Positions 2,582 to 59,843 of a stretch of DNA of 64,000 bases are shown here, in pieces. The DNA is taken from positions 1,385,989-1,449,988 of the forward strand of contig NZ_JH597773.1 in assembly GCF_000243335.1 (NCBI RefSeq), read 5' to 3'. How positions within the stretch are numbered: position 1 is the stretch's first letter; each line of letters opens with the position of its first letter. Under the pieces are notes generated by a model that was not told where the DNA came from, made no database searches, and saw only the letters and a program-made list of their open reading frames with translations. Origin of the DNA: Leptonema illini DSM 21528. Lineage in GTDB: Bacteria; Spirochaetota; Leptospiria; Leptospirales; Leptonemataceae. The position numbers and the translations under genes are program-made.

Positions 2582-5389
2582 ATGGCAGAGAGTCGTAAAG
2601 GGCCGGATTCTATTCGCATCCAGGGTGCGCGAGAGCATAATCTCAAAAACATCAGCATCGACATCCCCCGCAACCGCTTCGTCGTGATCACCGGCGTTTC
2701 GGGCTCGGGTAAGTCATCGTTAGCCTTCGATACGATCTATGCCGAAGGGCAGCGCCGCTACGTCGAATCGCTTTCATCGTATGCCCGCCAGTTTCTGGGG
2801 CAGATGGAGAAGCCCGACGTCGATCTGATAGAAGGCCTGAGCCCTGCCATCTCCATCGAACAGAAGACGACGCACCGCAACCCGCGCTCCACCGTCGGAA
2901 CGGTGACCGAGATCTATGACTACTTTCGATTGCTTTTCGGCCGTGTCGGCAAGCCTCACTGCCATCAATGCGGACGTCCCGTTGAGGCGGCCGGCGTCGA
3001 TCAGATCCTCGATCGCATCCTTGATTTTCGCGAAGGAACGAAGATTCAGCTGCTCGCTCCGCTGATTCAGAATAAAAAAGGCGAGCATAAAGAGATCTTC
3101 CAGACGGCTCTGAAGAACGGCTTCCTGCGCATGCGCGTCGACGGCACGATTCAGGAGATCACCGGCGACGAAGAGCTTGCGAAAATGAAGAAGCATACGC
3201 TCGATCTTGTCGTCGACCGTCTTGTAATCCGCGACGGCATCCGTTCGCGCATGGCCGATTCTGTTGAGACGGCTCTTCGCGAAGGAGCGGGCAGCCTCAT
3301 CGTAATCGAACAGGCTCCCGACGCCGACGAGAAAGAGCATCTGTATTCTACAAGGCTTTATTGCGCACATTGTGAGATCTCGTTACCCGAAGTGAAGCCG
3401 GCAAGCTTCTCGTTCAACTCTCCACTTGGCGCATGCCCGACGTGCGACGGCCTCGGCCATCTGATGGAATTCGACGAAGCCCTTGTCGTGCCCGATCCAT
3501 CGTTATCGATCCTCGACGGTGCGCTGGCCCCCTGGAGCTCCGGAAAGAACTTCTGGTATCTCGAACTACTGCAAGATCTCTCGCTGAAGCTTGATTTTCA
3601 TCCTCATACGCCCTTTGGCAAGCTCTCAGCCCGCCATAAAAAGGCCATCCTCTACGGCTACGAAGAAGGAGGACATCGCGTCTTTGAAGGCGTGATCCCG
3701 AATCTGCAGCGGCGCTTTCGCGAGACGAAATCCGACGATATGCGGGAATGGATGCAGAAGTTCATGTCCGAAAGTCCGTGCCCCGATTGCAAGGGCAAGC
3801 GACTGCGTCCGGAATCGCTGGCGGTTAAATTCGGCGGGGAGAGTATCGATCGTCTTGTCGATCGCAACGTGCGCGAGCTGATCGGATTCTTCGAGAAAGT
3901 GAAGCTTACAAAGACTGAAGAAAAGATCGCCGACCGTGTATTAAAGGAGATTCGCGAAAGGCTGGGCTTTCTGAATAACGTCGGAGTCGGCTATCTGACG
4001 CTTTCGCGCGCCGCCGGTACGCTTTCCGGCGGCGAGGCGCAGCGCATCCGTCTGGCCACGCAGATCGGCTCCGCCCTTTCCGGCGTGCTTTATGTGCTTG
4101 ATGAGCCTTCGATCGGTCTTCATCAACGCGATAACGCAAAGCTGCTTGCTACGCTGAAAAGCCTTCGCGACAGAGGCAATACCGTCATCGTCGTCGAGCA
4201 CGACGAAGAGACGATGGAAGAGGCCGACTGGCTTATTGATCTCGGTCCGGGCGCCGGCGTTCACGGCGGACAGGTTGTGGCCGAGGGCATGCCGAAGGCC
4301 GTCGCCCAAAATACAAAGAGCGTCACAGGCCAGTATCTTTCGGGCAAAAAGAAGATCGAGATCCCGAAAGAGCGTCGCCCCGGGAACGGCAAATCCATCG
4401 TCGTTGAAGGGGCGATCGAGAATAACCTGAAAGGCATCGATGCCGAATTCCCTCTCGGCATGATGATCTGCGTCACCGGCGTTTCGGGGTCCGGAAAGTC
4501 GACTCTGGTTAACGACATTCTGTTAAAGTACGTGCAGCATAAACTGTATAAGTCGCGGGTGAAGATCGGTAAACATAAGGCGATTAAAGGCCTCTCGGGC
4601 ATCGAGCGCGTCATCGCCATCGATCAGGAGCCCATCGGACGCACTCCGCGATCGAATCCGGCTACCTATACGGGGCTTTTTACGCCGATCCGTGAGCTTT
4701 TCTCTGAACTGCCCGAGGCGAAGCTTCGCGGATACAAGCCCGGTCGCTTCAGCTTTAACGTCGCCGGCGGACGCTGCGAGAACTGTCAGGGAGCCGGCAT
4801 CCTGCGTATCGAGATGCACTTTTTGCCCGACGTCTACGTCACCTGCGACGTCTGTCAGGGAAAGCGGTTTAACCGAGAAACGCTCGAGGTTAAGTATAAA
4901 GGTAAATCCATCTTTGATGTGCTGGAAATGACCGTTGAAGATGCGATCGGCTTCTTCGAGAACATCCCTTCGGTCAGTGCGAAACTGAAAACACTCGAAC
5001 AGGTCGGCATGGACTATATTCGCCTGGGGCAGGCGGCCACGACATTATCGGGCGGCGAGGCGCAGCGCATTAAGCTGGCCACCGAGCTTTCGCGCAGATC
5101 AGACGGCAAGAGCCTGTACATCCTCGACGAGCCGACGACGGGCCTGCACTTTGAAGATATTCGCAAGCTGCTGCACGTTCTTCATGAACTGGTGGAGCGC
5201 GGCAATTCCATGATCATCATCGAGCATAACCTCGACGTCATCAAAACGGCGGACTGGATCATCGACCTTGGCCCCGAAGGCGGCGACGAAGGCGGCGAGA
5301 TCCTGGCCGCCGGAACTCCCGAAGAGCTGGCCGAGGTAAAGAAAAGCCATACGGGTATCTATTTAAAGAAGATCCTGAAGAAGCGGTAA
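2582..5389 (+). CDS. uvrA: UvrABC excision nuclease subunit A
   Basis: A 935-residue protein of normal UvrA length, the damage-sensing ABC-type ATPase of nucleotide excision repair; it loads UvrB on damaged DNA as a dimer. Two ABC cassettes are visible: Walker [10 protein letters not shown] at residues 38-46 and a second GVSGSGKST near 640. Signature LSGGEAQR occurs twice, and the Walker B regions read [11 protein letters not shown] and [11 protein letters not shown]. Zinc modules are present: CAHC...CPTC near 260-290 and CENC...CDVC near 730-765. The ATG at 2582 begins [10 protein letters not shown] directly before the conserved [14 protein letters not shown]. The ribosome site is weak. It stands alone between the dehydrogenase and the AT-rich island; a LexA box was not found. 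Confidence 0.97.
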
Positions 5390-5489
5390 ATACCGTGTTG
5401 CAATGCCGGAGGCGCGGAGAAGGACTTTCCCCATTGAAGCACAAGGTGTATTTTTTTTAGAGACAATCGTCATGACAAGGGGAAATAAG

Positions 5490-7022
5490 CTATGATTTTC
5501 GAGATCTTTTTCTAACACTCTTCTTCCTATATGATTTCTTTGTGCTATAGGCTCTACCTTGGATGAGATTAAGGTAACTTCTAAATACGAAAGGGATCCA
5601 ATATTCTTTGTTCGAACCTCTTCTTTCGAAAAATCCAATACGAGAAAGGTCATTCGCTATCGTTTCCGCCTCTGCTTTCGATTTGTTTAGAAGTCTTGCC
5701 AAAGTATCTTTGCTATGATCGCTTTTTTGGTTTCTGAACATTTCTATAGTGCCCCTAAAGCTGGGATATTCCGCAAAGTATGTTTGTTCGATTAGTGCTT
5801 TGGAAACAGGTTTCAAAGCTGCTCGAAATGCGGCTGGCCCAATCAATTGATTACCACTTGGGACATCACCTGTGCGCTCTATTATTTTGATCTGCTCGGA
5901 TCTGGCTTCATTTAGAAGGTGAATTATTTCTCGGGGTGAATAGTTTGGATGAGCACTTTTGGTTCGGGAGAGAATCCAATCAAATGTGCTAGGCTTATTT
6001 CGACCACTATCGATTTGCTTGGGGAATACTGTATTGAAGAGCGATCGTTGCCTTCTATAGGCGAGAGCATTGATCTGTTGGTATTCGTCGATAGAACATA
6101 GCCTCCGTACTAAATTTGAGCGGAATGTTCTGTTTAAAATGAGTAGTAAAAGATCATCCGTTGTCCATTCGATAGTCTGAGTATTTGTGACGTGGCTTGC
6201 CTCTGTGAAGCCTTCAGAAGTGATTTGCGCCCAGATATCGGATCGCAAAAAGAGCTTTATCTTGACGTTTTCATACTGCCGAAAGTTTAGATAGGTCCGG
6301 ATCAACCCTTTGATCGCATTACTCTCGAGTTCAGGTGAGTCCACAAAAGCAACATCAAGTCTGTCGAGTGCGATCCAAAAGACGATCCCCTTTTTCTTGG
6401 CTGTTGCAGAAAGCTGCCGCAGTAGATCATTGATTTCGTCGCTACGTACTGTCTTCCAGAAAGGTAATAAGCGTAGAGCGATCTTAAAATATTGTTCCCA
6501 GCCACCATCATTGCCTGCCGAAAGTCTGTTGCCTACTTCAAAAGAATCGGGGGGTCTTATTGATTTTACTAGAAGTTGTGCCCTGCGAAATATATCCAAG
6601 ACTGACATCTTGCTTGAGAATAAACCTAAATTTCTGAGGCGTCGAACTTCTTTCGAGTGGATTTTCCGCTGATTCAGTTCTTTGGCAATCAATCCGGCAA
6701 AATACAAGCTCCAAAGGTCTATGAAGTTAGAAATTGATGTGGGTGGCTCCCTTTTTAATTCACTAAAAACAGGCTCACCTTTGAAACTGTCGGCACTGAT
6801 TAAGCAAATTGATTTTCTTTCGAGCTGTTCTTTCCTTTTGTTGAGCAGAAGGTAAATTGCACTTTTTCCACTCCCTTTATAGCCATAAACAATATCAATT
6901 TTACCTGAAAACAGCTTTTGCCATATATCGGTTTCGATGAAGTAGTCGGCAAGGATATCAGTTTCTTCTTCTGCTACTCTCGATCCAAAATCCAGTGAAT
7001 TTATTATTTCCCTTTTTTCCAT
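5490..7022 (-). CDS. P-loop ATPase, probably Sll1717 family
   Basis: A 510-residue protein with Walker A GYKGSGKS at residues 47-54, preceded by the segment AEEETDILADYFIETDIW that I associate with the Sll1717-type P-loop ATPase family, and a Walker B candidate VFWIALDRLD at 214-223 followed by KLFLRSDIW around 257-264. The C-terminus is very basic (KKSVRKRSRKS), suggesting nucleic-acid contact. No nuclease or membrane domain was recognised. The family is common in variable genome regions and relatives are often suspected of phage defence, but function here is unknown. Base composition is clearly more AT-rich than every neighbouring gene, which points to recent acquisition. The ATG has no good ribosome site, and no in-frame start lies upstream before a stop. 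Confidence 0.7.
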   Translation of the reverse strand: MEKREIINSLDFGSRVAEEETDILADYFIETDIWQKLFSGKIDIVYGYKGSGKSAIYLLLNKRKEQLERKSICLISADSFKGEPVFSELKREPPTSISNFIDLWSLYFAGLIAKELNQRKIHSKEVRRLRNLGLFSSKMSVLDIFRRAQLLVKSIRPPDSFEVGNRLSAGNDGGWEQYFKIALRLLPFWKTVRSDEINDLLRQLSATAKKKGIVFWIALDRLDVAFVDSPELESNAIKGLIRTYLNFRQYENVKIKLFLRSDIWAQITSEGFTEASHVTNTQTIEWTTDDLLLLILNRTFRSNLVRRLCSIDEYQQINALAYRRQRSLFNTVFPKQIDSGRNKPSTFDWILSRTKSAHPNYSPREIIHLLNEARSEQIKIIERTGDVPSGNQLIGPAAFRAALKPVSKALIEQTYFAEYPSFRGTIEMFRNQKSDHSKDTLARLLNKSKAEAETIANDLSRIGFFERRGSNKEYWIPFVFRSYLNLIQGRAYSTKKSYRKKSVRKRSRKS

Positions 7023-7338
7023 GCGATCACTGCTGACGGTAGATTATTGGATGTACCTCCATTATAGGCTATATTTGTCAATAAAAACAATGTGGATGAT
7101 TCAGGATACTTCTGTAGATCGTAAATTCAATATCAGAAAACAATTTTGAGGACCTCCTATTGTCTGACCTGATAGTTTGAGTGAAATGAAAGTGCAATGG
7201 AATTATGTGGCGTGGTTGCTGTGTGCGTGTTTTGTCCCACCATTTCGGTATTGATTATTGGATCATTAAGGTCGGTGTCATTATCTTCATCTTACAGAAA
7301 CTATTGACATCCTGACATCATATCTTACCCTATCTGCC
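7023..7338. other. Divergent AT-rich intergenic region
   Basis: 316 bases between two divergent genes. It carries the minus-strand ATPase promoter and, on the plus strand, TTGACA at 7304-7309 with TACCCT at 7326-7331 (16-base spacer). Initiation from the latter would begin at about the ATG at 7339, giving a leaderless message; that gene indeed has no ribosome site. No ORF of interest, terminator or clear repeat was seen between 7090 and 7300. Confidence 0.4.
7061..7090 (-). promoter_or_regulatory. Promoter of the P-loop ATPase gene
   Basis: On the minus strand TTGTTT (7090-7085) and a perfect TATAAT (7066-7061) are separated by 18 bases, a sigma-70 type promoter about 40 bases upstream of the ATG at 7022. 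A TTGACA also lies just 9 bases before the TATAAT, too close to act as its -35 element. This is the best promoter match seen in the window. Confidence 0.6.
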
Positions 7339-8658
7339 ATGAAATGGGTCCCTCTCTATCTTCTTTTGCTTACGCCGTTTTCTCTGCCGGCACAGACGTT
7401 TCAGATCGTTCAGACGATCGACGCATGTCGAGCCCTTCAACCGTTGCAGGTCATACCCGATGTGGCTTCTTTTTCGGATGGCTACGCCGGCTTCTGTATG
7501 TTTGATACGCAAACCCGACGACTGCACCGGGTGAAGCTCTTTGAAATGGCAGGAATGGAAGCGCCGCCGAATGCGGTAGGCAAGGAGCGCTGGAAGTTAT
7601 ACAACGAGAATCGGCTGTGGGATCTAAAAGACTCGACACCCGTCTTCTTCGATCGTGATAAAGAGACGGTCACCGTTTTAATCCGAACGACCCGTTACCG
7701 GTTAAAGAACGAGGGATCTCCTCGTTGCCCCGGAAGCGACGAGATCGCTCTTTTTGCGAAAGAGCATGAGAGATGGTACTGCGGCAGCACGCGCAAATTC
7801 CTGAACACTGAAGATTACATTGTCCAGGTCAATCACGCAGCCCTTTATACGTTCGATCTCAAAGGCAGACGCTTGATTGAAACGGCGCCTCTTCCGGCGA
7901 CGAACGATGAATTGATCGGCATCACCGGCCGAAGAACGGTCTGGCAGGAGCCCGTCTACTTTTATAAAACGATCACGCCGGAGGGACGGACGCGAGGACA
8001 GTTTCGTATTACGATCGCCGGAGCAGGCGAAGATCTGCAGCAGTTTGAGATCGAGGCCAGCGTCCGCGATAAGAACATTCTCGGCTTCGACGGTTATTCG
8101 TTGCAGGCCGAGGTAACGCCCGATGGTAAGACGGTCCTTGCCTGGGAGTATGACGAATTGAACACACCGAAGGCGGGCTTTCTCGTCAATCCCCAGGCCG
8201 AAGGCTTTGTCATTTCTCTTGAAACAGGCAAGGCTCTTCGCGTGCCGATTCCGGTGACGGCCTACGGACGCTATGTGGACCGCATGTATAACAGGCTCGT
8301 CATCGGTAGCAATCAGACCGGTATGCTGTATGGCTATGATCTTGATACGGGTGCCCAATCGACTCCCGTATTCTCGGGCGTTTCCATATTCCTGATCACG
8401 ACCAATCCGACGAAGGATAAGCTGTTTGTCTTTTCGAAATCGGGTGTGGCCGTGCATGATAGAAAGACCTTGCAGAAGCTGAAGACGATTCCCTTGAAGA
8501 TGATCTTTCCCGGGGCGACGATGCTGCTTGCCGCCGAGGATTACTTTCTCTCAAGTGACGGGAAGGTTCTGATTACGGGAAAAATAAAAACGCAGAACGG
8601 CTACACGTCCTCTGATATTGAAAATGGCGGCTTTCATGTAATCGAGATAAAAGACTGA
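7339..8658 (+). CDS. Secreted protein of unknown function, propeller-like
   Basis: A 439-residue protein with a cleavable signal peptide (MKWVPLYLLLLTPFSLPAQ), so probably periplasmic or exported. I do not recognise a family. The mature part is rich in short beta-type segments, with phrases such as YDLDTGAQSTP, LFVFSKSGVAVHDRKTLQKLK and LIETAPLPATNDELIG that resemble blades of a YVTN or WD-like beta-propeller; this is inference from pattern only. Several cysteines are in the first half (C34, FCMFD, SPRCPG, RWYCGS). Composition returns to the GC-rich norm of the window. The start has no ribosome site; see the intergenic entry on possible leaderless transcription. Confidence 0.7.
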   Translation: MKWVPLYLLLLTPFSLPAQTFQIVQTIDACRALQPLQVIPDVASFSDGYAGFCMFDTQTRRLHRVKLFEMAGMEAPPNAVGKERWKLYNENRLWDLKDSTPVFFDRDKETVTVLIRTTRYRLKNEGSPRCPGSDEIALFAKEHERWYCGSTRKFLNTEDYIVQVNHAALYTFDLKGRRLIETAPLPATNDELIGITGRRTVWQEPVYFYKTITPEGRTRGQFRITIAGAGEDLQQFEIEASVRDKNILGFDGYSLQAEVTPDGKTVLAWEYDELNTPKAGFLVNPQAEGFVISLETGKALRVPIPVTAYGRYVDRMYNRLVIGSNQTGMLYGYDLDTGAQSTPVFSGVSIFLITTNPTKDKLFVFSKSGVAVHDRKTLQKLKTIPLKMIFPGATMLLAAEDYFLSSDGKVLITGKIKTQNGYTSSDIENGGFHVIEIKD

Positions 8659-13798: not shown

Positions 13799-15145
13799 AT
13801 GTGTGATACCTTTGTGGCCACGGGCTCCTTCACGTCCAGTGGGAATATGATCTTCGGTAAAAACTCCGACAGGGAGCCGAATGAATCGCAGTCTCTTGAG
13901 GTGCACGGTCCGCGCAGAGCGCAGGCAAAGCGCCGGCTGACCTTTATCGAGATTCCCGACGCCGACGCACATGCCGTCCTGCTCTGTCGTCCCTTTCATA
14001 TGTTTGGCGCCGAGATGGGACTGAACGAGCACGGCCTTGTTATCGGCAACGAGGCCGTATTCACGAAGCTGCCTCGCAAAAAGAAGAACGACGGTCTGAC
14101 GGGTATGGATTTAATCCGGCTGGCGCTGGAACGGGCGAAAACGACGGATCAGGCAGTCGAGGTCATCACATCGCTTCTTGAAGAATATGGTCAGGATGCG
14201 TGCGGCGGCTACGAAGACCGCAACATGTTCTATGATAATAGCTTTTTAATCGCCGACGGGAAGACGGCGCGGGTCCTTGAAACGGCAGGGCGCTACTGGG
14301 CCTCAAAACAATTCGATGGCTATTATGCCATCTCAAACGGCCTGACAATCGGCGAAGATTTTGATCTCAGCTCGAAGGAGCTGGCCGACCGAACGCTGAA
14401 AGATGGGTTACGTAGGAAATCGCAGCCCATGCATTTTGCCGGCGTTTTCTCTGATACCTTTTATACGACGATGGGCAAGTGCCGCGTGCGCCGTTCGCTC
14501 AGCGAGCAGAGAAGCTCCACACTGGCACGCAGCGGTTTCTCAGTGCAGGAGGCAATGGCCGTTCTGCGTTCGCATAACCCACAGCATCCGAATGATCCTT
14601 CACGAACGGGCATGGGTTCGCTATGCCTGCATGCGTCGGGGCTTCTTACGCCAAGCCAGACGACGGCCTCCCTTGTCGTCGAGGTCGGCAAACAGGGTTT
14701 ACAGACGATCTTCGCCACCGGCACGTCGTCCCCCTGCATCTCGCTTTTCAAACCTGTGGCGCCGCCCTCTGCGAAGCATCTGCTTGGTATCGAGGCCGAT
14801 GCTCCCGATCGTCCGACAGAGACGGGATGGGCCACTCCAGGCCGTGTGGAAGACCGCTCTCTCTGGTGGCAGCATGAAGGCCTGCACCGTCGCATCCTGG
14901 CATCGTACGCCGAGCTCGCTCCGCTTGTGTTGCCCGAGCGTGATGCAGCGGAACGACGCTTTACGGACGGCAGCGAATCCAATGTTGCATCGCTGAGCGA
15001 AATTGCTTTCAGCGAACACTTTCGACTGCTCTCGCTCTGGAAAGAAAGAGTACGGGATCGGCTGAAAAGCATCGCCCCGCCCATGCGTCCGCTCTATCGC
15101 CGTTACTGGAGTCGTAGAAACGCCGTGCTCAAAGAGGCGCTCTGA
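13799..15145 (+). CDS. C69-family (secernin-like) dipeptidase
   Basis: A 448-residue protein beginning MCDTFVATGSFTSSG, the N-terminal signature of C69 dipeptidases and secernins, in which the Met is removed and Cys2 becomes the N-terminal nucleophile. GKNSDREPNES follows at about residues 22-32, then GMNEHG-type GLNEHGLVIGNEAVF and the NSFLIAD segment. The ATG at 13799 is chosen because Cys must follow the initiator Met; GGCAGG lies eight bases upstream. No signal peptide, so cytoplasmic. It is divergent from the pseudouridine synthase gene with overlapping control regions. Acyl transfer rather than peptide hydrolysis is possible within the NTN-hydrolase fold. Confidence 0.85.
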   Translation: MCDTFVATGSFTSSGNMIFGKNSDREPNESQSLEVHGPRRAQAKRRLTFIEIPDADAHAVLLCRPFHMFGAEMGLNEHGLVIGNEAVFTKLPRKKKNDGLTGMDLIRLALERAKTTDQAVEVITSLLEEYGQDACGGYEDRNMFYDNSFLIADGKTARVLETAGRYWASKQFDGYYAISNGLTIGEDFDLSSKELADRTLKDGLRRKSQPMHFAGVFSDTFYTTMGKCRVRRSLSEQRSSTLARSGFSVQEAMAVLRSHNPQHPNDPSRTGMGSLCLHASGLLTPSQTTASLVVEVGKQGLQTIFATGTSSPCISLFKPVAPPSAKHLLGIEADAPDRPTETGWATPGRVEDRSLWWQHEGLHRRILASYAELAPLVLPERDAAERRFTDGSESNVASLSEIAFSEHFRLLSLWKERVRDRLKSIAPPMRPLYRRYWSRRNAVLKEAL

Positions 15146-54549: not shown

Positions 54550-56397
54550 TCAGGGAAGCTCCTTGTAGAAGACAGATCCACTGCCGCCCACGGACACACA
54601 GATGGATGGGGAACAGGTAAAGCCATAGCCGCGGCCGGCGAATCCAATTGTAACCCAGCTCCCGCCATTGTCGGAGGATTTCATCACGCCATTTTCGGTC
54701 GTCGCATATATGTCACTGCCAGTATCGTGAACCCGCTGAACAAAACTATACTCTGGTAAGGTATATTCGGAGAAACTGGTCCAGTCTGTTGTTCTATCAT
54801 ATGGTTCGGGAAAAGCTGTCAAATCATCCATAAGACGGCGGCCGGCTAATAGATAGTAAGAGTCGTTGCGCTTGAAGATACCGGTATAGCTTTTATATGT
54901 ATCTCTTTTATTGAGCACCCAGTTATCGCTTATTGTGCAGTTTGCATCACACTGAACGGTCCAGCCTTTCTCGCCGACGATTCTGATCCGGCCTATTTCA
55001 TCGATATAAGCATCTCGAGGCATGCCCTCGGGGTCAATATCTTTTGAAATAACCTGCCAGTTGTTGCCGTCGGATGATATGGCGAAACGAAAGCTTTTAG
55101 CCAAACCGTTTTTGTATAGTCCATAGGCCAGCCACAATTCATTATGGTGCTTGATACCGAAAAATTTCGTGATTGTGGAATCTACTGTTTTCTTGGTCCA
55201 CGTAGTGCCATTATACGAAAAGATGATCCCGGTTGATGTAACTATGTTCAAGTTTGTACCATCGCCGGCAATATCATTCAAATCATCAGAATAATAGCTA
55301 CAGCCACTAATCGTTACAGGCGTCCATGTCTTTCCATCTGAGGATGTAAGTAAGGTACAACGGTTTCCCGTTGCGTAAAACTTACCATTCAGATACCTGA
55401 CGGAATTGAGCCTCTGGCTTGTTCCGGTCGGAGCGTATGTCCAGTCGATCTTACTGCCACTGCCTGTACTGGAGGTGGAGGTTTTTGAATTCTGAGGATT
55501 ATAGTCATAAGGCAGTGTCAGCGTCATTGGCTGACCATTTACTGTTCCGGCGAAGGTATCATAGCCGCGAATGCGATTATCGTTCCAATCCAGCGAGAAC
55601 CGATAGATCGTTTTATACTCTTCTGTTCCATTGAGTTCGTAACTCTTTCCGTTTAAATTGAAGAAACCATCCGTTCGTATGGGTAAGGATGCTGATGACT
55701 CTCCGCTTATACTCCAATCGTCGATGTGATCCTTCAGGTGATATTCACCGTGCTCTATGATAATTGTGCCATTCATGAAGTCACGGTCCGTATCGTTATT
55801 GTAAGGCCATTCAGTACTGTTGATCCCGAGAGCCGCCCTGTCCTTGAACGAAACCGTACCGTCAACGCAATTAGAGAACTTTAACTGCAGATTCATATCC
55901 GTCACGTCTATCCAGACCGTCGAATAGTCCGAGCCGATTTCGTAGTGCGTTGTGCCGGTAAAAGAGCCTGTCATGAGGGGACAGTGGCTGGTGGGAGTGA
56001 CGGTAAACGTAAAATAAGCGCTTCCCTGTTCGGCCCGATTCACGATGTCTGAACGCAGTCGGTTCAGCTCTGCCGCCAATTCTTTCATCACTAAAGAGCG
56101 AATATCCGATCGCTTCTCAAGGGTCGTAGACGCTGAGGAAGCATAGTAGGCTGCGTTGTAGAGCTGAAAGCCGCCCGTGTCGGCCGCCGCACCGGTATGG
56201 GCAGACAGATAGAAAGCCACTTCGGCCTCTGAACGCATGGATTCAGGGTATTGAAGTTCAAGAGGCTTCAGAGGGGCTGTGTCAGGCAATCCTCCGAGTG
56301 CAAGAAGAGACATCATATCTGTTTCTTCTTCCTTGCAGGCAGCGGCAAGCAGACAGACTCCGGCCAGAAGGACATGCAGTGCTTTCATACATCTCAT
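54550..56397 (-). CDS. Large lipoprotein with BNR-like repeats, paralogue A
   Basis: A 615-residue lipoprotein: signal MRCMKALHVLLAGVCLLAAA then Cys. The first ~330 residues share many identical stretches with the paralogue at 58002-59843 (for example PLKPLEL, MRSEAEVAFYLS, EKRSDIRSLVM, RLRSDIVNRA, VNGQPMTLTLPYDYNP). The second half carries repeating units such as LTSSDGKTWTPV, YNGTTWTKK, ISSDGNNWQVI and SSDNGGSWVTIG, typical of BNR/sialidase-like or YCF48-like propeller blades. It is probably on the cell surface or in the periplasm. Function unknown. It is AT-richer than neighbours such as carB. ATG 56388 is an alternative start three codons in. Confidence 0.75.
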   Translation of the reverse strand: MRCMKALHVLLAGVCLLAAACKEEETDMMSLLALGGLPDTAPLKPLELQYPESMRSEAEVAFYLSAHTGAAADTGGFQLYNAAYYASSASTTLEKRSDIRSLVMKELAAELNRLRSDIVNRAEQGSAYFTFTVTPTSHCPLMTGSFTGTTHYEIGSDYSTVWIDVTDMNLQLKFSNCVDGTVSFKDRAALGINSTEWPYNNDTDRDFMNGTIIIEHGEYHLKDHIDDWSISGESSASLPIRTDGFFNLNGKSYELNGTEEYKTIYRFSLDWNDNRIRGYDTFAGTVNGQPMTLTLPYDYNPQNSKTSTSSTGSGSKIDWTYAPTGTSQRLNSVRYLNGKFYATGNRCTLLTSSDGKTWTPVTISGCSYYSDDLNDIAGDGTNLNIVTSTGIIFSYNGTTWTKKTVDSTITKFFGIKHHNELWLAYGLYKNGLAKSFRFAISSDGNNWQVISKDIDPEGMPRDAYIDEIGRIRIVGEKGWTVQCDANCTISDNWVLNKRDTYKSYTGIFKRNDSYYLLAGRRLMDDLTAFPEPYDRTTDWTSFSEYTLPEYSFVQRVHDTGSDIYATTENGVMKSSDNGGSWVTIGFAGRGYGFTCSPSICVSVGGSGSVFYKELP

Positions 56398-57957: not shown

Positions 57958-58003
57958 GATACCTTCTCCCGCGATCATGTGAGACTGACCGCGGGACGGT
58001 ATC
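57958..58003. terminator. Stem-loop between convergent genes
   Basis: GATACC...CCCGCG pairs with CGCGGG...GGTATC, two perfect 6-bp blocks broken by a small internal loop, with a 16-base loop. It lies between the transporter stop and the end of lipoprotein B and touches the last codon of the latter. Confidence 0.5.
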
Positions 58004-59843
58004 ACTGAAGTTCTTTATAGTAGACAGTGCCATTGCTACCAACCGCCGCACAGATCGCAGTCGAACAATCGAACCCGTACACAGAAGGACCAAAATCCTC
58101 GTAAAGGGCTGTCGTCCTCCAGTGCAAGCCGTCCTGACTGCTTCGAACCTTGTTGAATGAACTTGCATGCACTTCGTAGCCATCATCGTAGACCCTATTA
58201 GTAAACCCCGACTTTGATCCGGTTACCTCTTCGACACTACTCCAATCGGATGTCGAATCATAAGCAGAAGTTGTGTCGGCCATCAGATAGAAAATGCCGT
58301 TGCGCTTAAAAATGCCTGTGTAGGGTTTATTCTTGTCCTTCTTGGTGAAGGTCCAATTGGTACCAACTGTGCAGTTGGCGGCGCATCGACCCAGCCACCC
58401 ATTATCACCGACGATCGATATGCCGGTTCCATCGAAGTACGCGTCATTGAGAGTATCCGTGACGGACGCTCCAGGCACGTCTGTCGGCGTTACCAATAAC
58501 CATGTCGAGCCATCATCCGATACGGCGATAGTTGGATCGTCCATAACACCACCATAGGCAACCCATAGATCGTTGAGATATTTGATTCCAAAATAACGGG
58601 CATACAGGGAATTTAATTGCTGCTTGGTCCAGGTTATTCCATTGTCTGACTTGTATGCGTTTTTGTATTTGGTGACTATGATCAGCTTTGCGCCATCAGT
58701 TGCAATATCAGACAAATCTTCGTTACAACCGGCCCCCAGCGAAACGGGACTCCAGTTTTTTCCGTCCACGGAAGTAAGCAGCGTACAGTTGTCTCCAGTA
58801 GCCCAGAACTTACCCTTCAAGAATCGAACCGAGTTCAGCGTCGAGCTTGTTCCGCTCACTGCTTTTTTGAACGTGATCTTACTCGCTCTGCCTGTGCTAT
58901 ATGTTCTCTCGTTGAGAGGATTATAATCATAGGGCAAGGTCAGCGTCATTGGCTGACCGTTTACCGTTCCGGTGAAGGTATCATAGCCGCGAAGACGGTT
59001 CCCGTTCCAATCCAGTGCGTGCACGCTATAAAGGCTCCTGTACTCTTCTCTTCCGTTAAGACTGAACGCCTTTCCGTTCAGAAGGAACTCTGCGTCGGTG
59101 CGCATGGGCAGGGACGCTGACGATTCTCCGCTTATTGTGACTGCGGTAATATGATCTTCCAGGTGAAATTCACCATGCTCGATGATAATTGTGCCATCCG
59201 TGACATCGCGATCATAGTCGTTATTGTAAGGCCATACGTTACTGTTAATCCCGAGAGCCGCCCTGTCCTTGAACGAAACCGTGCCATCAACGCATTCAGT
59301 GAATTCCAACTGGAGATTCATATCATTAACGTCTATCCAGACAGTTGCATAGTCCGAACCGATTTCGTAGCGGGTTGTACCGGTCAGTGTGCCTGTCATA
59401 TGGGGACAGTTACCGTCCGGAGTAAGGTTGAAAGTAAAATAAGCGCTTCCCTGGTCGGCGCGATTCACAATGTCCGAACGCAGTCGGTTCAGCTCTTCCG
59501 TCAATTCTCTCATTACTAAAGAGCGAATATCCGACCGCTTCTCAACGGTAGCAGACGCTGAGCTGGAATAGTAGACGGCGTTGTAGAGCTTAAAACCAGC
59601 TCTGTCGGCTGACAGACCGGCACGGGAGGAGAGATAGAAAGCCACTTCTGCCTCAGAACGCATGGCTTCAGGATATTCAAGCTCCAGAGGCTTCAGAGGG
59701 GCTGTATCGCTCAAAAATCCAAGCAGTCCCCACGTGCTCAGCAGGTCACTCTCTTCATCTTTGCCGCCCGGACATCCCAAAAGAACCGGTAAGTGCAATC
59801 CGAGAATAAGAAGACGTAGTGTCGACTTTAGGTTCATAGACAT
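58002..59843 (-). CDS. Large lipoprotein with BNR-like repeats, paralogue B
   Basis: A 613-residue lipoprotein: signal MSMNLKSTLRLLILGLHLPVLLG then Cys. It is the close relative of paralogue A: the N-terminal ~330 residues are mostly alike and colinear, while the C-terminal half is clearly more different though still built of the same units (LTSVDGKNWSPV, SDNGITWTKQ, SDDGSTWLLV, SSQDGLHWRTT) and the same C-terminus (YYKEL). Cysteines are also conserved (NGNCPHM, DNCTLL, RCAANCTVG). Surface exposure and binding roles are possible; there is no evidence for a catalytic motif. The pair suggests gene duplication with the transporter gene between them. Confidence 0.75.
   Translation of the reverse strand: MSMNLKSTLRLLILGLHLPVLLGCPGGKDEESDLLSTWGLLGFLSDTAPLKPLELEYPEAMRSEAEVAFYLSSRAGLSADRAGFKLYNAVYYSSSASATVEKRSDIRSLVMRELTEELNRLRSDIVNRADQGSAYFTFNLTPDGNCPHMTGTLTGTTRYEIGSDYATVWIDVNDMNLQLEFTECVDGTVSFKDRAALGINSNVWPYNNDYDRDVTDGTIIIEHGEFHLEDHITAVTISGESSASLPMRTDAEFLLNGKAFSLNGREEYRSLYSVHALDWNGNRLRGYDTFTGTVNGQPMTLTLPYDYNPLNERTYSTGRASKITFKKAVSGTSSTLNSVRFLKGKFWATGDNCTLLTSVDGKNWSPVSLGAGCNEDLSDIATDGAKLIIVTKYKNAYKSDNGITWTKQQLNSLYARYFGIKYLNDLWVAYGGVMDDPTIAVSDDGSTWLLVTPTDVPGASVTDTLNDAYFDGTGISIVGDNGWLGRCAANCTVGTNWTFTKKDKNKPYTGIFKRNGIFYLMADTTSAYDSTSDWSSVEEVTGSKSGFTNRVYDDGYEVHASSFNKVRSSQDGLHWRTTALYEDFGPSVYGFDCSTAICAAVGSNGTVYYKELQ

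Follow-up and report, generated by a model that had tools for sequence, protein, structure and literature searches.

A solitary AT-rich ATPase gene of the Sll1717 family in Leptonema illini, a putative one-gene anti-phage defence

A lone gene in Leptonema illini DSM 21528 encodes a 510-residue P-loop ATPase that spreads horizontally as a self-contained unit and most likely serves as a one-gene defence against phages, although we put this role forward as putative. The gene belongs to a named family, its protein is predicted to fold like immune switch ATPases, and relatives move as solitary genes and occur in prophages. The window referred to below is the whole stretch of 64,000 nucleotides that was analysed, and positions count from its first letter. 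The first features needed are:

5390..7338, no strand: AT-rich island, consisting of 100 bp of GC 0.460, the ATPase gene of GC 0.409 and 316 bp upstream of it of GC 0.383
5490..7022, minus strand: ATPase gene, 510 aa, NCBIfam NF047389 'P-loop ATPase, Sll1717 family' at 210.9 bits, AlphaFold2 pLDDT 83.5 and pTM 0.79
7061..7066, minus strand: TATAAT hexamer, cited earlier as a promoter, 38 nt before the ATG and not above chance

The 510-codon open reading frame (ORF) is confirmed as a real gene. As the first-pass annotation described, it stands alone between uvrA (2582..5389) on one side and, beyond its 5' end, a 439-aa ORF (7339..8658) that has no Pfam match and begins with a stretch which, judged by eye, resembles a signal peptide. 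Its unusual base composition is equally clear. The sampled genome mean GC is 0.544, and among 242 ORFs of at least 250 aa taken from 484 kb sampled of the same genome, the ATPase gene has the lowest GC (z about -4.8) and the second lowest GC3 (0.392); none of 902 sampled 1,533-bp stretches of this genome has a GC as low. The earlier description of the DNA as AT-rich therefore stands, and it extends to the 316 bp upstream. No paralogue was found in the own genome. Among the five near neighbours scanned with Pfam, no defence gene was recognised and no transposase was found, and the gene is flanked by no convincing repeats and no tRNA.

Other AT-leaning ORFs exist. Two lie in the window itself, at 54550-56397 (615 aa, GC 0.479) and 58002-59843 (613 aa, GC 0.495), neither with a Pfam family over cut-off. 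A third, 3.3-5.9 kb upstream of the window start on the same contig (L053:14123-16727), is a toxin-like RES-domain ORF of 450 aa and GC 0.424 (54.1 bits against a cut-off of 23.2), whose HEPN/RES N-terminal part scores under its own cut-off and whose frame overlaps the end of a Mutator-family transposase gene by 23 bp.

The TATAAT hexamer had been read as the gene's own promoter, which native genes were said to lack. The hexamer exists, but it occurs at chance frequency and has no good -35 box: the best candidate scores 3 of 6 at a spacing of 14-20 nt, and the sole TTGACA nearby lies just 9 nt away. TATAAT appears in 988 of 5,000 random sequences of the same make-up, is found 10 times in the window against 12.7 expected, and promoter-like sites between 5300 and 7500 number 6 against 4.1 +/- 1.8 expected, which is chance level. 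The promoter is thereby ruled out as evidence of a self-contained gene.

The identification as an Sll1717-like ATPase is secure. The protein matches NF047389 at 210.9 bits, well over the curated cut-off of 75, across residues 12-481 (profile positions 1-433 of 454). The gene is a new member of this named but uncharacterised family, whose model name states no function; a literature search limited to the spellings tried found no mention of the family name. No Pfam family scores over cut-off in the 510-aa protein, no effector domain is recognisable in it, and no convincing sequence relative of solved structure was found.

Members are sparse and widely scattered. Across 198 genomes (the own and 197 relatives) the family model matches 11 at E 1e-10, with nine over cut-off including the own genome, and matches none of 14 control genomes. 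Scanning genome contigs for the window protein by itself gave no relative, and the same scan with a two-member alignment (A1) found 24 loci, three of them partial, in Pseudomonadota, Spirochaetota, Gemmatimonadota, Acidobacteriota, Actinomycetota, Bacillota, Bacteroidota, Thermodesulfobacteriota and a Saganbacteria bin; a scan of IMG/VR with the close form added five contigs. The 25 members aligned with the window protein are 32-40% identical to it and are spread over eight or more phyla; this 26-member alignment (A2) and the GC comparison below leave out L069, missed by the ORF caller, and the partial L085-L087. One locus, L086:1356-1622, keeps only about the first 90 residues, and the match is lost well inside the contig; it is a decayed member. 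Among 369 genomes of the class of one Halomonas (G199), the close form is found at E 1e-100 in G199 and one other only, and DS-41 proper, an anti-phage system discussed below, at E 1e-60 in one. A phage collection of 50,697 records gave no match at E 0.01, which argues against wide spread in phages, while 26 of 72,556 plasmid records match, all at less than 60% identity and one over 80% of the query. The tree of members mixes phyla: the Pseudomonadota rows need six changes, a number as low being reached in 266 of 500 label shuffles, and well-supported branches force three of these changes. Of all end branches, that of the window protein is the longest (1.63), and no sister is placed beside it with good support.

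The surroundings of the members indicate a gene that travels alone. When 394 proteins encoded within eight genes of the 29 loci were clustered, no neighbour family was common to loci except in one pair (L091 and L092), near-identical prophages that share their neighbours. The clearest case of insertion comes from Candidatus Electronema (L078), in which the ATPase gene lies between rpiB and glyA. In its nearest relative (L117), which lacks the ATPase, both flanks align (93% identity in rpiB, 96% in glyA) and 1,521 bp of the occupied locus correspond to 25 bp, which constitutes an empty site. Among 29 loci from relatives, rpiB and glyA are both present in 20, all of which lack the ATPase; in the other nine, rpiB is absent from the stretch fetched. 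One of the 20 has the gap filled by a Dam-like DNA methyltransferase gene (L119:430-1480), so the rpiB-glyA slot takes single foreign genes.

Low GC is a property of the family rather than of the window copy. In each of the 26 full-length members measured, the GC of the gene falls below that of its flanks, the difference ranging from 0.04 to 0.29 (mean 0.125), whereas 184 other ORFs at the same loci, called with a simple longest-first caller that can yield false ORFs in GC-rich genomes and that missed one portal gene (L092, found by tblastn), differ by +0.009 +/- 0.056 (Mann-Whitney p 1.4e-14). L069, outside this comparison, is likewise AT-richer (0.493 against 0.666 in its flanks). Defence genes are reported to have lower GC than their hosts (PMC13092281). 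Since AT-richness is common to all 26 members, that of the window does not date the arrival of the gene.

Nor does the neighbourhood of the gene supply a date. uvrA has a match at E 1e-150 in 18 of 22 genomes, the own included, and the 439-aa ORF has, besides the own genome, a weak match in one of 21 relatives (E 6.8e-4). In a tblastn comparison of 11 window proteins with 17 uvrA stretches from relatives and with the 20 kb upstream of the window, the window's downstream genes were near uvrA in none of 16 relatives' stretches, the 17th (L050) ending inside uvrA. Synteny downstream of uvrA has been lost in the stretches from the window's family, so an empty site is not demonstrable there. Together with the shared AT-richness and the long end branch, this removes the word 'recently' from the proposal of a recently acquired, self-contained accessory gene. 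The remainder of that proposal, a foreign and self-contained gene, is supported by the lack of a paralogue, the presence in nine of 198 genomes, the absence of shared neighbours and the empty site elsewhere; no relative was found to carry the gene at this position, and no housekeeping orthologue was found.

The protein carries the following motifs, with counts referring to the 26 aligned members:

6861..6884, minus strand: Walker A, residues 47-54, GYKGSGKS; G47, K49, G50, G52, K53 and S54 in 26/26
6345..6383, minus strand: Walker B strand and D-R-L-D motif, residues 214-226, VFWIALDRLDVAF; W216, D220, R221, L222, D223, A225 and F226 in 26/26
6231..6263, minus strand: KIKLFLRSDIW motif, residues 254-264, a putative sensor-1 or arginine-type position; K256, F258, R260, D262 and W264 in 26/26
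5913..5939, minus strand: SPREIIHLL motif, residues 362-370, a putative sensor-2-like position; P363, R364 and I367 in 26/26
5598..5711, minus strand: winged-helix core, residues 438-475, within the C-terminal domain (388-490), with helices and wing in the models
5493..5555, minus strand: basic C-terminal tail, residues 490-510, predicted to be disordered, pLDDT below 50 at 491-510

Both Walker motifs had been described as intact. This is true of Walker A; the Walker B strand of the window protein (FWIALDRLD) is present in another form, in which the invariant Asp is followed by Arg and not by the usual Glu. Because D-R-L-D is invariant in all 26 aligned members, this form is characteristic of the family and does not mark a defective protein. 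The basic tail noted earlier is present, but among the 25 aligned relatives it is shared by only one, another spirochaete (L065).

Structure prediction places the protein among STAND and ORC-like AAA+ ATPases. The AlphaFold2 model, built on the 26-member alignment, best matches the archaeal ATPases 2qen and 2fna (Z 14.9 and 14.7, about 325 residues aligned), followed by Cdc6/Orc1 (2qby_A, Z 13.7), CED-4 (13.4), RdrA of RADAR (12.6) and TnsC (7rzy, 12.3); Foldseek matches include ORC2, Apaf-1 and BrxC of BREX (BrxC at E 1.1e-5), and in a viral structure library the best named matches are general AAA ATPases. When the C-terminal 103 residues are modelled on their own (pLDDT 87.3), the best match is the winged-helix region of Apaf-1 (97 residues aligned, rmsd 3.2) at a borderline Z of 8.1, and by Foldseek the domain has no match at E 0.001. 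A Walker B of D-x-L-D type is a signature of STAND ATPases, and the P-loop core, a D-x-h-D Walker B and a winged helix follow one another in STAND order, with fold and order resting on prediction. The model thus suggests a STAND/ORC-like AAA+ fold with an Apaf-1-like winged helix. Judged from the models, this fold does not single out immunity, as ORC-type AAA+ proteins, TnsC and proteasomal ATPases score in a similar range.

Longer relatives show additional parts. In three Spirochaetota members of about 800 aa (L055, L057 and L058), N-terminal stretches resemble Nuc_deoxyrib_tr, all under the Pfam cut-off, and these proteins are possible sensor-effector fusions. TIR-like NADases act in bacterial immunity (PMC13174449), and the deoxyribosyltransferase-like N-terminal parts may be comparable to them by analogy. 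A further member, in a GC-rich genome (L062:9420-11525), has a C-terminal extension that looks by eye like a class III nucleotide cyclase and has no Pfam match.

A remote relationship connects the family to an experimentally supported defence system. Plaque tests found 42 transcription units that protect E. coli; DS-41 is among them, and its homologues reach Halobacteria (PMC13092281). The window protein scores 43.6 bits against the DS-41 model NF053860 (DS41_1_antiphage), below the equivalog cut-off of 370, and is not a DS-41; as far as sequence comparison can tell, the relation is remote. At E 0.001 or better the model nevertheless matches 25 of the 26 members. In a profile comparison, the 26-member alignment is collinear over 327 columns with a DS-41 member that passes the cut-off (L146), at E 1.2e-4 and probability 55, whereas one-to-one BLASTP sees no similarity (E 0.45). 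A PADLOC search of the window protein gave the candidate family PDC-M28C at E 9.6e-17 over residues 192-377.

Two members lie in P2-like prophages. Beyond the ATPase gene of L091 follow a P2-like portal, a terminase, a scaffold and a major head protein (PHROGs); in L092 the terminase was compared as well, and the P2-like portal was found by tblastn. In both the portal is about 70 bp from the ATPase gene, and the two portals are 94% identical. In the account by Vassallo et al., the portal gene is one border of the P2 prophage defence hotspot; both loci end on the endonuclease side, and only the portal side is seen. In another member (L089), the ATPase frame is found 154 bp past the end of an integrase frame, with a RecT-like gene further along. 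Three of ten neighbours in the PHROGs comparison have no match.

Defence genes are also found near members, at a frequency that is suggestive only. Two PADLOC scans of 172 neighbour proteins (23 loci, within 5 kb) matched 175 and 109 families, and a control of 118 proteins around uvrA (16 loci, within 6.5 kb) matched 72, all counted as families and not as loci and with the first 25 families of each scan named; the control comes from other genomes and itself holds restriction-modification genes and a reverse transcriptase. This is not clearly above control, and we claim no enrichment. Twenty of the 172 were picked by eye for naming, and of the ten in the second set five have no PADLOC match. 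Those named include a BsuBI/PstI-type restriction pair (L065), an HNH protein with a cytosine methylase (L074), a 1,242-aa SIR2-like protein (L075), DUF1156/DUF499 (L083), a Schlafen AlbA_2 protein (L084), an integrase arm domain (L082), type I restriction parts (L079) and a RecD-like helicase match (L070). At L072, a CARF-like protein (14028-15071) lies beside the family member, near a D12 methylase and a DpdB-like DGQHR protein.

Two other roles for a travelling ATPase have to be weighed against defence. The protein could be a DNA-repair or stress accessory, useful for reasons other than phages, as might be suggested by its position beside uvrA, by a predicted winged helix and basic tail that would suit DNA binding, and by the annotation 'DNA repair protein' on some distant plasmid relatives. 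The adjacency to uvrA is not typical of the family, as tblastn of the window uvrA on 41 loci (L054-L092, L149 and L150) gave a single match of 71 residues at 44% (L084), and the patchy occurrence over cut-off and the prophage positions beside portal and integrase also speak against a repair gene, which makes this reading unlikely. Slightly less probable still is a role in the maintenance, replication or transposition of a mobile element, as an ATPase of ORC/Cdc6-, TnsC- or ParA-like type that was left in, or is carried by, chromosomes. The fold matches to Cdc6/Orc1 and TnsC would suit it, as would the distant plasmid relatives, two of three examined being near relaxase genes. However, the close members at the 29 loci have no recurrent neighbour from a transposase, replicase, partition or relaxase family, none of the five window neighbours scanned is a transposase of the kind that accompanies TnsC or IstB, and the 1,521-bp insert in Electronema leaves room for little beyond the ATPase gene.

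That the gene is passive AT-rich cargo without present function in its host is the least probable of these readings. The long branch of the window protein would fit such a state, and the truncated L086 demonstrates that copies can decay; against this, the family-invariant motifs are intact and the 510-aa frame is open. A single-gene defence role, which the first-pass annotation had called possible, gains weight from the distant relationship with DS-41, the location beside the P2 portal gene in two prophages and the fold, and it remains a prediction.

If the gene is a defence, we infer a switch with a phage-derived ligand, an oligomeric active state and an effect on phage growth. At rest, the ATPase would be a monomer that binds ADP and is held shut by its winged-helix domain. 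A protein or DNA structure made by the phage would open it, and ATP-bound subunits would then assemble into a ring or filament, an assembly that would stop phage growth. Where relatives carry an N-terminal nucleoside-deoxyribosyltransferase-like or TIR-like part, we would expect it to act as the effector. For the 500-aa form, the assembly would itself block phage replication or recruit a host enzyme, perhaps by engaging DNA with the winged helix and the basic tail; a replication block on DNA is our first guess. To our knowledge, no phage assay of a close form exists.

A bolder and distinctly more tentative proposal, which we consider possible though doubtful, is that the 500-residue ATPase is a complete minimal NLR-like immune system, combining sensing, switching and phage arrest in one STAND/ORC-type module without an effector. 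The bare 1.5-kb gene would then be spreading across phyla and prophage hotspots, and the forms fronted by deoxyribosyltransferase-like or TIR-like parts would show the switch gaining a killing domain. In either case, a function-free family name gives way to a specific claim: a lone, self-moving ATPase gene at prophage defence positions that resembles immune switch modules. If the claim is true, the protein is a very small immune protein, useful for asking in what way a STAND-like ATPase arrests phage with no effector attached and how such switches came to gain one later.

Comparison with known systems places the gene between several of them. With Apaf-1, CED-4 and archaeal STAND ATPases it shares an NTPase core followed by a winged helix and a D-x-L-D Walker B, but the window protein has no CARD, WD40 or TPR part recognised by Pfam. 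RdrA of RADAR and BrxC of BREX are AAA+/STAND-like defence ATPases of related fold. RADAR and BREX are multi-gene systems, whereas no partner family accompanies the window-type ATPase at the 29 loci. DS-41, found with DefensePredictor, resembles the close form in length, in Walker A, in the hydrophobic-D-x-h-D strand and in the PR motif and is collinear with it in the profile comparison. The two differ in that the window protein scores 43.6 bits against the DS-41 model, whose cut-off is 370, and in the one-to-one BLASTP result. At the DS-41 locus L149, a 171-aa frame lies 110 bp downstream on the same strand and may be a partner of DS-41. Within NF047389, the window copy belongs to the close 500-aa form and adds a basic tail, while four other members are longer, at about 800 codons of open frame, and three of these carry additional domain-like stretches at the N-terminus.
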